From NCBI GenBank assembly GCA_009779195.1, contig WRET01000002.1:1-64000 (forward strand): 64,000 nucleotides of DNA, in the 5' to 3' direction. The stretch comes from Micrococcales bacterium (lineage in GTDB: Bacteria; Actinomycetota; Actinomycetes; Actinomycetales; Cellulomonadaceae). Of the stretch, positions 1,788-36,248 are shown piece by piece. The translations under genes and the position numbers were made by a program. The number at the start of each line of letters is the position of its first letter. Positions within the stretch are counted from its first letter, which is position 1. The notes under the pieces were generated by a model. That model saw only the letters and a program-made list of their open reading frames with translations, had not been told where the DNA came from and searched no databases.

Positions 1788-1880
1788 TGTCTGTTCGGCA
1801 GCCCGGCTGACCGCGTGGGTCCCGTGGCTTTGCGTCTCCTCCTCGCGGAGGGTTTGCCCTTGTCGTCTGACACTGTGAGG
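1788..1880 (-). promoter_or_regulatory. Cyclic di-GMP-I (GEMM-I) riboswitch
   Basis: Read on the minus strand, the conserved GEMM-I blocks occur in order: AGGGCAAACC, then GACGCAAAGCCACGGG after a CTCC/GGAG stem, then GGTCAGCCGGGCTGCC. These are the ligand-binding joints and the tetraloop-receptor side of the class I c-di-GMP aptamer. An AAGGA-ATG start follows within about 15 bases and no clear intrinsic terminator sits between, which suggests translational control. Downstream genes on this strand are the 38-residue frame and the membrane ferredoxin protein. Confidence 0.85.
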
Positions 1881-6927: not shown

Positions 6928-7054
6928 ATGACTGCGGAGCTGGCCACCGTCAATAGGTCACGACCACCCTGCGGAAATCCACAAAAATTTTGGGAGCCGG
7001 GTGTCTCGGTGGGTTGTTGTGGCTGGGGTGGGTCGCGGGTGGGGGTGGGGGTTG

Positions 7055-7238
7055 GTTGGGTTGGGTCGCGGGTCGGGGTGGCTGTCCGGCACGCAGTCCC
7101 CCGACCGGCTGTCGCCGGTCTTCCCGCCAAACCCGATGCCAGCGTGCCGGACAGCCACCCCGACCCGCTGGTGCAGGCCTCGCCACCCGGTGGGGGGAGG
7201 TCTTGGGACGGCTCGTCCGGCTGCGCCGGACATCGGCC
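7055..7238. repeat. Covarying structured element, copy 1
   Basis: G-rich run (GGTTGGGTTGGGTCGCGGG) leading into a perfect 25-bp inverted repeat (7068-7092 with 7144-7168). Its 51-nt loop contains a 7-bp hairpin GACCGGC-TGTC-GCCGGTC and an invariant tract TTCCCGCCAAACCCGATGCC. Two further hairpins follow (7183-7193 and 7215-7231). Copy 2 lies at 18271-18491. Between copies the stems change in compensating pairs while loops stay identical. The rest of 6928-7376 is G-rich and has no convincing gene. Confidence 0.85.
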
Positions 7239-14548: not shown

Positions 14549-14625
14549 ATCTCCTCCTTGTTCCCAGGAGGGGTCCCGCGGCGCTCCACCGCACAGCCGG
14601 AGCGTCACGGGGGAGAGAAATCCCG

Positions 14626-14726
14626 ACTCCCTACGCCGGTACAAACCGGATCAGGTTCGAGGGTCTGCGGTTGTCCGCACTCTCAGCGCCCTGGCCGCAC
14701 CCGAGGGTCCGTCCCGACGCTCCCCT
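14626..14726 (-). promoter_or_regulatory. TPP (THI-box) riboswitch
   Basis: On the minus strand the conserved blocks are present in order: GGGGAGC at the 5' end, GCTGAGAGTGCGG, then ACCCTCGAACCTGATC, a GG-TTTGTACC hairpin and the closing GCGTAGGGAG. These form the pyrimidine and pyrophosphate sensor helices. It ends about 75 bases before the thiB start. Thiamine pyrophosphate should switch thiBPQ off. Bases 14727-14908 upstream hold the promoter region with nothing else recognised. Confidence 0.93.
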
Positions 14727-14908
14727 GTCGTTCGTGCCAGATCATACCCCCTCGCCTCCGGCACCAGAGCAGGCCCGAGCACCCACGCCGACTGTTGGAT
14801 CCTGGTCGCGCGCAGCCGCAAGACCCACGGCCCAGGCACAGGTCGCAGCAGAGCAGGTTGTGCGGTGGGACCGATGGCGTCCGTCGCCGACCAGGACGCT
14901 CGACAGTG

Positions 14909-18270: not shown

Positions 18271-18491
18271 GCTGTTGGTTGGGCTGGGTCGCGGGTCGGT
18301 GCTGTTGGTTGGGCTGGGTCGCGGGTCGGGGTGTCTGGCCGCCACGCAGTCCCCCGACCGACTGCGTCGGTCTTCCCGCCAAACCCGATGCCAGCGCGGC
18401 GGCCAGACACCCCGACCCGCTAGTAGGTCCCACACCCCGGTTGGGGGGAAGGTCTTGTGGACGGCTCGTCCGGCTGCGCCGGACGTCGGCC
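18271..18491. repeat. Covarying structured element, copy 2
   Basis: Starts with a 30-bp direct repeat (18271-18300 and 18301-18330; GCTGTTGGTTGGGCTGGGTC...), then a 25-bp inverted repeat (18321-18345 with 18396-18420, one A-C mismatch). The 50-nt loop has hairpin GACCGAC-TGC-GTCGGTC and the same TTCCCGCCAAACCCGATGCC tract as copy 1. Hairpins at 18435-18446 and 18468-18484 follow. It occupies the space just after hemB. Confidence 0.85.
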
Positions 18492-18493
18492 GA

Positions 18494-18531
18494 GACAATG
18501 GGGACGGTTCCTATGTCTTGCCTGGTCAGCC
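18494..18531 (+). repeat. REP half-element left of toxin-antitoxin locus (duplicate 1)
   Basis: GACAATGGGGACGGTTCC followed by TATGTCTTGCCTGGTCAGCC. It starts three bases after the structured element. Its inverted partner is at 19625-19660. It is the leading end of a 172-bp segment repeated 199 bp further on. Confidence 0.8.
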
Positions 18532-18692: not shown

Positions 18693-18730
18693 GACAATGG
18701 GGACGGTTCCTATGTCTTGCCTGGTCAGCC
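18693..18730 (+). repeat. REP half-element left of toxin-antitoxin locus (duplicate 2)
   Basis: Second copy of GACAATGGGGACGGTTCC plus flank, 40 bp beyond the antitoxin stop codon. Between the two duplicates, CCGCCGGACAATG occurs twice in close succession, a likely slippage point. Confidence 0.8.
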
Positions 18731-19624: not shown

Positions 19625-19660
19625 GGCCAGGCAGGACAGAGGAACCGTCCCCGTTGTCTC
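19625..19660 (-). repeat. REP half-element right of toxin-antitoxin locus
   Basis: GGCCAGGCAGGACAGAGGAACC followed by GTCCCCGTTGTCTC-like end; in reverse orientation it matches the REP halves at 18494 and 18693. With them it brackets the toxin-antitoxin pair as a pair of inverted ends. Confidence 0.75.
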
Positions 19661-19721: not shown

Positions 19722-21053
19722 ATGGCTGAGACGACCAACGCCCGCGCGTTTGACGACGCCCTGGACGTCATCCCTGGTGGGGTGGACTCTCCAGTCCGGG
19801 CGTTCGGGGCTGTTGGGGGGACACCCAGGTTCCTGGTCAGTGGGCACGGTCCGTACGTGTTTGACGTCGAAGGACGCGAGTACGTGGACCTCGTCGGGTC
19901 TTGGGGTCCGGCGCTGCTCGGTCACGCCCACCCTGACGTCATTGCCGCTGTCGTCGCCCAGGCTGGACGTGGTTTGTCGTTCGGTGCGCCGAGCCCGAAC
20001 GAGGCTGAGCTGGCTGCTGAGATCCGCCGACGCGTGCCTGCCGCCCAGAAGGTGCGTCTGGTTTCTACCGGCACTGAAGCGACGATGACTGCCCTGCGCT
20101 TGGCCCGTGGTGCCACAGGTCGTGATGTGGTCATCAAGTTCGCTGGTTGTTACCACGGGCATGTCGACGCTCTGCTGGCGTCCGCTGGGTCGGGGCTGGC
20201 CACGTTCGCCCTGCCTGGTTCGGCGGGGGTCAGTGCCGCTGTCGCTTCCGAGACGATCGTGTTGCCATACAACGACCTGGACGCTGTGCGCGCCGCCTTC
20301 GCAGCCCACCCTGGCAAGATCGCCGCGGTCATCACCGAAGCCGCCCCGGCGAACATGGCGGTCGTCCCCCCGCACGACGGTTTCAACGCGGGCCTGCGCG
20401 AGATCACCGCCGCCGACGGCGCCCTGCTCATCCTCGACGAGGTCCTCACAGGTTTCCGTGTCTCGCCAGCAGGTTGGTGGGGCCGGGACGCCGGGGCGCA
20501 GAACCCCACCTGGACCCCTGACCTGTTCACCTTCGGCAAGGTCATCGGCGGCGGACTGCCCGTGGCAGCCCTGGGCGGGCGCGCCGACCTCATGGACCTG
20601 CTCACCCCCACCGGCCCGGTCTACCAGGCTGGCACCCTGTCAGGGAACCCCGTGGCCACCGCCGCGGGTCTGGCCACTCTCCGCGCTGCTGACGCCGACG
20701 CCTACGCCCGCGTCGACGGCGCCTCGGCCGCGCTCCAGGCCCTGGTCACCGAAGCCCTCACAGCGGCGGGTGTCGAACATGTCATCCAGAGCGCAGGCAA
20801 CCTGTTCTCCGTCGTCTTCGCCGCCGAACCCGCCCGCGACTGGACGATGATGCAGGCCACCGGCACCTGGCGCTACGCCCCCCTGTTCCACGCCCTCCTC
20901 GACGCTGGTGTCTCCGTCCCCCCCTCGGCCTACGAAGCATGGTTCGTCTCCGCCGCCCACGACGAGACAGCCCTCTCCCGCATCGCCGAAGCCCTCCCCG
21001 CCGCCGCCCAGGCTGCTGCGGAGGCCCAGCCCTCGTCACCGCTGGACGGCTGA
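19722..21053 (+). CDS. hemL: Glutamate-1-semialdehyde 2,1-aminomutase
   Basis: 443 residues from an ATG with GGAGA upstream. Family landmarks are [11 protein letters not shown] near the start, the PLP lysine Lys273 in [14 protein letters not shown] and GTLSGNPVA. It makes 5-aminolevulinate from glutamate-1-semialdehyde, feeding hemB. hemA (glutamyl-tRNA reductase) is not in the window. The toxin-antitoxin cassette separates it from hemB; it has its own upstream region (19661-19721). Its stop codon lies inside the long inverted repeat that follows. Confidence 0.95.
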
Positions 21054-21128
21054 CGAGATCGTTCAGAAATCACGAGATCGTTCACTATTCTGAACGATCT
21101 CGTGATTTCTGAACGATCTCGTCAGCCG
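21047..21128. terminator. 38-bp perfect inverted repeat between hemL and sirtuin
   Basis: Arms 21047-21084 and 21091-21128 are perfect complements with loop CTATTC. Each arm holds the 13-mer ACGAGATCGTTCA twice, so the motif is present four times. It begins at the hemL stop codon and ends 13 bp from the stop of the convergent sirtuin gene. A bidirectional terminator is the simplest reading, but it lacks a T-tract, is AT-rich for this genome, and is unusually long and internally repetitive. Confidence 0.7.
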
Positions 21129-31803: not shown

Positions 31804-31970
31804 CGAGACGGTGGGGACGGTTCCGGCTGTTTCGCAGGGGTGAGCCGAGGTGGTGGGGGACGGTTCCTGAGCTGGCCGAGACGGTGGGGACGGTTCCGAC
31901 TGTCTCGCGGGACCGCCCGCCAACGGCGGGGTCCCGCGACGACTGCGGAACCGTCCCCACCGTCTCGGCC
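31804..31970. repeat. REP/REPIN cluster upstream of sigma cassette 1
   Basis: Two partial halves (31804-31836, 31845-31870) followed by a full REPIN (31874-31970): GGCCGAGACGGTGGGGACGG ... complement, with inner hairpin TCGCGGGACCGCCCGCC... The whole space between rplI and the sigma gene is repeat; no gene is seen in it. Confidence 0.85.
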
Positions 31971-34047: not shown

Positions 34048-34094
34048 GAGACGGTGGGGACGACGACTGCGGAACCGTCCCCACAGTCTTGGCC
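34048..34094. repeat. Deleted REP element upstream of sigma cassette 2
   Basis: GAGACGGTGGGGACG joined directly to ACGACTGCGGAACCGTCCCC: the inner loop and one arm part of the full REPIN at 31874 are missing. The interval 33886-34166 holds only terminator, gene fragment, REP and promoter. Confidence 0.75.
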
Positions 34095-36152: not shown

Positions 36153-36248
36153 GGCCGGGACGGTGGGGACGGTTCCGACTGTCTCGCGGGATCGCCCGCC
36201 AACGGCGGGTCCCGCGACGACTGCGGAACCGTCCCCATCGTCCCGGCC
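36153..36248. repeat. REPIN at the end of CoA-transferase fragment B
   Basis: GGCCGGGACGGTGGGGACGG ... complement. Compared with the copy at 31874, the outer stem has A changed to G and T to C at paired positions, so pairing is kept. It abuts the broken end of the gene fragment and lies 34 bp from the nuclease stop codon. Confidence 0.85.

Follow-up and report, generated by a model that had tools for sequence, protein, structure and literature searches.

Integron attC sites are imperfect palindromes that act as folded single strands and have conserved ends and a variable loop, and hairpin RNAs of the 4.5S/SRP type carry a conserved apical domain on a long variable stem. The described repeats taken for comparison were the REP, BIME and REPIN palindromes with RAYT, which are GTAG- and CGTC-tagged (PMC8266576), and MITEs together with the enterobacterial RU-type small mobile repeats (PMC2759123). 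The terms rothia, microbacterium, actinomyces, micrococc and actinobact were absent from the main text of one REP/RAYT paper. Among the papers listed by the literature searches, none describes the hairpin family reported here, which is not proof of absence.

The window is the whole stretch of DNA that was analysed, 64,000 nucleotides from contig WRET01000002.1 of a Micrococcales bacterium (Cellulomonadaceae; GCA_009779195.1). Two copies of a structured element had been predicted in it, and both are real: the covariance model R3 returned exactly these two. All of their features are given for the plus strand. Copy 1 begins with a G/T-rich leader (7020..7067), which ends in GGTTGGGTTGGGTC and forms the left foot of the element in the own genus. 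It is followed by a left stem arm (7068..7094) that is 100% complementary to the right arm (7142..7168), and by a 47-nt head or apical domain (7095..7141) of the form AGTCCCCC-inner hairpin-TTCCCGCCAAACCCGATGCCA, which is conserved with subtypes in order-wide relatives (R3 match of 83.7 bits at 7082-7154). Copy 2 comprises a G/T-rich leader with a partial tandem duplication (18271..18320), a left arm (18321..18347) that is 96% complementary to the right arm (18394..18420), and a 46-nt head (18348..18393; R3 match of 83.5 bits at 18335-18406) with its inner hairpin at about 18356-18372 in alignment A2. A leader-like sequence was seen by eye 5' of the stem in most copies of the own genome (G000) and of G082 and G083. 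The head pattern derived from copy 1 had an expectation of 0.00 per window by shuffling, and RNA folding z-scores were -3.7 for the plus and -4.6 for the minus strand.

The originally predicted structure is confirmed, and the family proves larger than had been proposed. The inner 7-bp hairpin is present at 7103..7120 (7103-7109/7114-7120), and two of its seven pairs covary in the own genome; the shared stem is there as well, at a length of 27 bp instead of 25 bp. The loops are the same in the two copies except for one base deleted from the inner loop of copy 2. The second copy had been placed at 18271-18491; the repeat proper covers 18309-18491, and 18271-18308 is a partial tandem copy of the leader. 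Of the two downstream hairpins proposed, the stronger repeat is the 7-bp one at 7215..7231 (GTCCGGC TGC GCCGGAC), which recurs at 18468..18484 with one change just outside the stem; it is a small repeat, more copies of which adjoin related elements. All four compensated pairs are correct (G-C to T-A, T-A to G-C and G-C to C-G in the stem, G-C to A-T inside), and a fifth, uncompensated pair had been missed: at column 36/90, copy 1 has A-T where copy 2 has A.C.

The genome that holds the window (3.33 Mb in 125 contigs) contains 10 copies, nine of them close and a tenth (C87) found with a covariance model. The model R1 was built from the nine close copies (alignment A2), R2 from 19 diverse members, and R3 is a wider model. 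Such a search had been proposed as a check, and it found more copies both in the own genome and in other actinobacteria. The carriers by R1 were 4 of 81 genomes of the own genus and 6 of 396 genomes of the order, and by R2 they were 9 of 396 order genomes and 2 of 396 genomes across the phylum (one of them the own genome, the second from the same order), all carrier counts taking in the own or centre genome. R3 found 19 carriers among 35 Rothia genomes, the three richest with 48, 29 and 26 matches, and 40 among 247 Microbacterium genomes with at most 10 matches each; the E-values of R1-R3 are rough, and where a Rothia genome has a lone weak match, this may be fortuitous. Named genomes were also scanned with the pattern, which gave at least 111 stretches, and a stem test followed. 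Among the matches listed, accepted members came from actinobacteria only, namely termite-gut Micrococcales MAGs, Rothia terrae, R. aerolata, Homoserinibacter, Microbacterium (M. resistens, M. suaedae, M. schleiferi, strain G2-8 and a MAG), a Micrococcaceae MAG, and Actinomyces timonensis; the listed pattern matches outside actinobacteria were judged to be chance. The weakest accepted stem scores (8.5-10) overlap the rejected ones (up to 9) and were separated by eye, and five weak hits (L143, L154, L157, L188, and L194) were left out of later counts. In viral contigs, 19 loci had a head-pattern match and none passed the stem test, and plasmids and phages gave no match for two queries.

The original prediction recognised no named family in the hairpin, and no Rfam family matches it above threshold. 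The window, searched at the gathering score, gave no hairpin match, and selected loci, searched by E-value, gave none above threshold; the best match there was MIR1437 (E 0.0005; 33 bits, where the gathering score is 168), and the others were miRNA-hairpin models and unrelated weak ones. Elsewhere in the window, a c-di-GMP-I-GGC riboswitch (1793-1867, minus strand) and a TPP riboswitch (14611-14736, minus strand) scored above the Rfam gathering score.

Among the copies found, both head and pairing are conserved. In the nine own-genome copies, 10 of 34 pairs change on both sides, with no one-sided switch to another standard pair, and 98.7% of 306 cells pair, compared with 90.3% for shuffled partners and at most 47.2% for slid structures; all four unpaired cells fall in column 36/90, which is thus unpaired in four of the nine copies. 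Among the 19 diverse members, pairing holds in 91.3% of cells and covariation in 16 of 19 pairs, and 80 double changes were counted, compared with 20.1 for shuffled partners and at most 17 for slid structures. The alignment of 61 members, which leans towards the structure because it was fitted to that of R2 and holds one partial row, has 93.2% of 1048 cells paired, 19 of 19 pairs covarying, and 362 double changes against 104.5 shuffled. Its cells include 5 G-U pairs, 4 that still pair after a one-sided change, and 71 (6.8%) that are unpaired; intermediates therefore exist, though one-sided changes to a standard pair are rare (4/1048). Since copies were sought by the head and had to pass the stem test, the conservation of head and the high pairing are partly there by construction, from which the double changes are exempt; decayed copies exist and would be under-counted. 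Between orthologous copies (G083 C128 and G082 C49), two stem pairs differ and both are compensated; in the other orthologous pair, G000 C43 and G083 C7, one change is compensated, and one-sided changes restore a pair once and break a pair once. Selection on pairing and loop had been claimed from the two window copies; both are indeed conserved, but double changes alone do not imply selection on pairing because the arms of a DNA palindrome can undergo templated mutual correction.

The conserved part of the element is the head, about 27-60 nt long, which consists of a 5' strand (RGTCCCYCG), a variable inner hairpin, and a 3' strand (CTCCCGCCARNCCCGRTGCCA) and sits on a long, nearly perfect stem. 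Among its lineage subtypes, GACCCTC..CCCGAGCC occurs in some Rothia and GTCCATCCG..CCCAGCCA characterises genus g64, and a short head form without the inner hairpin is also present in Rothia aerolata. Within genomes, identity is 0.89-0.96 in the 3' core of the head, 0.75-0.83 in the inner hairpin where present, and 0.56-0.83 in bp 1-6 of the arms. Beyond about 6 bp, five of six genomes have stems that are for the most part particular to each copy, with arm identity of 0.29-0.40 at bp 7-12 and 0.27-0.48 at bp 13-18, values near or somewhat above the flank background (0.25-0.31), while the same outer-arm positions pair at 0.64-0.98 (background 0.25-0.34). The own genome is the only one of the six measured with related arms (0.62-0.70). 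Of 168 distinct headed copies, 166 have stems of at least 18 bp, and among these 166 there are 146 different 12-mers at bp 7-18. In Rothia aerolata, a 27-nt head is identical at 13 of 20 loci, five of which share stem parts while the remainder differ. In Microbacterium G923, the feet (GCTGCGCG..CGCTCCGC) are largely common and the stem from foot to head varies by copy; in 216 kb, a set biased in that it was fetched around heads, 16 such feet have a head and none lack one. The stem is copied along with the head in the own genus, Microbacterium resistens, and G887, and private stems are therefore not universal. The eight near-identical copies of G887, six of which have a mismatch at one outer pair, suggest a recent amplification in which the stem travelled with the head. 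Slow compensated drift explains one head on many stems poorly, because the inner hairpin, free to vary between genera, is similar within a genome; one head on many unrelated near-perfect stems needs arms remade at insertion or frequent exchange.

Comparison of close species shows that whole hairpins have been both acquired and lost in the spaces between adjacent genes. In G859, about 150 bp with an imperfect stem (by eye) is inserted between two genes, where only 0-1 bases are unaligned in G869 and G850 and the flanks are 92-95% identical. G863 and G861 have gained about 296 bp, an inverted element pair, against 7-9 unaligned bases in G850 and G869 and a remnant in G862. At the nine own-genome sites, 21 of 23 alleles in three related genomes have no copy (by eye, 260 nt displayed); G083 also has the C43 copy, and at the hemB site of G082 an opposite copy lies 344 bp away. 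Eight copies were first found in Rothia terrae, of which seven were in the query and five were aligned; at these five sites, 17 of 18 aligned relatives' alleles, three of the 18 aligning only partly, have neither head nor stem, and the remaining allele (G848) carries a different element, inverted. Within 400 kb each of G869 and G850, the comparison of polymorphic sites left one element that passed the filter, at a site replaced in both species, and a looser filter left 4 and 1 elements, respectively. At one locus, a stem common to G850 and G869 bears the head in opposite orientations in the two genomes (by eye).

The comparison of orthologous sites, proposed with the original prediction, thus yielded clean empty sites in close Rothia species and no target duplication: none was seen by eye at two clean Rothia sites, and flank repeats at the ends of 54 Rothia copies were no longer than in 427 control pairings. 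The orientation of copies relative to GC skew was unbiased (54 of 107 positive). An inverted duplication of the target flank was considered for one locus of G850 and G869, where the headless allele has the left arm and the right arm looks newly inverted. It is not claimed, because a deletion in G869 fits equally, the second site of G850 keeping the left arm and about 8 nt of the head; a further case (D) likewise looks like a left arm left behind.

The genes adjoining copies are ordinary and differ from copy to copy. Pfam matches were obtained for 36 of 40 adjacent or near proteins, none of them named transposase or recombinase, and the largest protein family common to the neighbourhoods occurs at 7 loci, 36-2011 bp away. 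A hemB gene lies beside copies in G000, G082, and G272, and this association was taken as chance, positions and orientations differing. Among 104 copies tested, 3 lie inside an ORF call and 22 at contig or locus edges, and 79 were classed by their neighbours as 33 convergent, 23 with both neighbours plus, 16 with both minus, and 7 divergent. The neighbouring gene pairs of the same loci (n=230, from heuristic ORF calls and with the element-bearing pairs included) were 52 convergent, 78 and 61 co-oriented, and 39 divergent. Promoter regions thus tend to be avoided by the element, which is what insertions harmless to genes, or 3'-end elements, would be expected to do. A scan found no T run downstream of copy 1, and two Rothia terrae copies have separate native terminators alongside (by eye).

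Other repeats occur in the window and around the copies. A second repeat family with the core GGGGACGGTTCC, often in inverted pairs, is found at 61-150, 18500-18511, 18699-18710, 19641-19652, 31813-31958, 34071-34082, and 36165-36236, with 12 exact matches and one with a mismatch (1.2 expected at up to one mismatch); these are perhaps REPs of the single Y1/RAYT gene of the own genome (G000:C48:3559-3891). At the end of a hemL-like gene, positions 21047-21128 form a perfect inverted repeat of 38 bp (CGGCTGACGAGATCGTTCAGAAATCACGAGATCGTTCA) around a 6-nt loop, and a motif related to it adjoins the C16 copy. In Microbacterium resistens (L121, 4374-5065), several REP-like palindromes (GGTCGTTGAGCGAGGAGCGCAGCGACGAGACGAAACG) lie beside two tandem element copies 190 bp apart. 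At L250 (G272:C4, about 6916), an approximately 36-bp direct duplication of a gene 3' end flanks another insert just upstream of the element. The loci L503-L542 of G869 and G850 contain many long perfect or near-perfect headless palindromes with stems of up to 28-29 bp and mostly unrelated sequences.

The two strands of a palindrome fold almost alike, and the folding strand can therefore be judged from mismatches only. G.T and purine-purine mismatches are the better tolerated kinds. On the plus strand, A.C mismatches outnumber G.T (102 to 38 with identical contexts collapsed; p = 6e-8, which overstates independence because the copies have common ancestry), and pyrimidine-pyrimidine mismatches outnumber purine-purine ones (172 to 27). 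The minus strand is favoured, since these become G.T and purine-purine there, and pairing probably matters on that strand, as RNA or as single-stranded DNA. The 5' arm is G+T-rich (0.61, compared with 0.44 in 36 headless Rothia palindromes).

The family resembles REP, BIME and REPIN sequences in being short intergenic palindromes with many copies, in single, inverted or tandem paired form and of patchy occurrence; up to 48 copies are dispersed per genome. It is unlike REPs in that its constant part is the loop domain and not a tag at the foot, the stem being mostly private. With MITEs and RU-type repeats it shares a non-autonomous unit of about 100-170 bp that is intergenic and inserted as a whole, but in five of six genomes its copies do not have conserved terminal inverted repeats in common, target duplication is not detectable, and the conserved core is internal. 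Relative to attC sites, the conservation is reversed, and the copies are single or paired and dispersed, not arranged in cassette arrays; no attC-type core site is conserved at the stem base (feet, by eye). The attC-like site, one of three options originally offered, is accordingly not supported, and the hairpin mobile element without its own transposase, with its empty sites, fits best. The 4.5S/SRP RNAs are like the family only as a comparison of how it may work, with a conserved apical domain on a long variable stem; the family is multi-copy and patchy and has no Rfam match above threshold.

The same likenesses would suit classical REPs, that is, hairpins moved by a Y1 HUH transposase (TnpA_REP), and other REP-like repeats adjoin the copies. 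However, the Y1 transposase profile PF01797 matched only the own genome among 15 carriers, two of which are only 65-67% complete, and none of 22 non-carriers, while a control matched 5 of 14 known genomes. No tetranucleotide tag is common to the feet, neither GTAG nor CGTC being shared across genera (by eye), and a GT(A) 3' of the stem occurs in most copies of the termite-gut genus only. For the 14 carriers with no Y1/RAYT detected, this explanation is disfavoured, barring a highly diverged Y1 or one located in a missing genome part, and for the family it is extremely unlikely. It is also highly unlikely that the head, as a mobile cap some 30-60 bp long, enters the loops of native long palindromes such as bidirectional terminators, whose arms would then be the private stems. 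Headless palindromes are common in Rothia (49 in G869 and 42 in G850 per 400 kb with stems of at least 14 bp), headed and headless ones have similar ranges of stem length, and heads are common within a genome where stems are not. Yet no headless counterpart of the 166 headed copies was found in the sequence examined, two pattern hits representing one place in another genus. The empty alleles, both the nearly seamless ones in G869 and G850 and those at the Rothia terrae sites, have no palindrome, and the Microbacterium feet, in their head-centred set, always carry a head. Head insertion into pre-existing palindromes is disfavoured on these grounds.

A host-functional structured RNA, either a small RNA or a 3'-end element, would have a head that binds a protein or ligand and a stem that need merely be paired, under selection for gene regulation or RNA stability. 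The conserved head and pairing with variable stem sequence agree with this, as do the position of most copies at 3' ends (convergent copies enriched and divergent ones depleted relative to the gene pairs above) and the in-place double changes between G083 C128 and G082 C49. Against it stand the patchy presence with clean gains between close species, the decayed copies, and the lack of any adjacent gene in common. Copies show no orientation preference among co-oriented neighbours (23 and 16), and relative to the minus strand, the left gene runs antisense at 56 of 79 copies and the right gene in the sense direction at 49 of 79. On the plus strand, G-U pairs make up the 5 of 1048 cells already noted, and a sigma-70 consensus scan found no promoter-like site around copy 1. 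An RNA of this kind is rather unlikely.

The explanation favoured here, as a whole somewhat more probable than its contrary, is a dispersed non-autonomous mobile hairpin of the Actinomycetales (in the GTDB sense) that is mobilised in trans. It explains the patchiness, the empty sites, and the absence of a partner gene; either repeated movement of intact copies or a function would account for the conserved head and pairing. That this is a dispersed mobile family is very likely, and whether it moves as a folded strand in trans is about evenly balanced. The unit would be moved in trans while folded as a single strand, which the tolerated mismatches suggest to be the minus strand, and the head would be recognised by some host or mobile enzyme. 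The stem sequence would be free to vary since only its double-strandedness is needed, and one arm may serve as the template on which the other is remade or corrected. Counting against mobility, no mobilising enzyme was found in a profile search that covered one family (PF01797), target duplication was not seen, two queries had no plasmid or phage match, and the absent GC-skew bias counts against a replication-linked single-strand mechanism, which might have shown one. In a further, unlikely version, the 30-60-nt head would itself be the true mobile unit, and insertion or repair would add fresh, perfectly complementary arms by fold-back copying; heads could then also be flipped or exchanged on standing stems. 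If true, this would be a new mode of DNA mobility, with the same head on each copy's private palindrome.

The DNA between bacterial genes is shaped in part by small mobile hairpins, of which the familiar examples need a recognisable transposase and a conserved end. The family described here keeps its loop and frees its stem, mostly without the expected enzyme, and reaches dozens of copies in ordinary actinobacteria (Rothia, Microbacterium, and Actinomyces). It also serves as a caution that compensatory changes between repeats need not mean RNA. The recogniser of the head and the origin of unrelated near-perfect palindromes around one core have now become testable.
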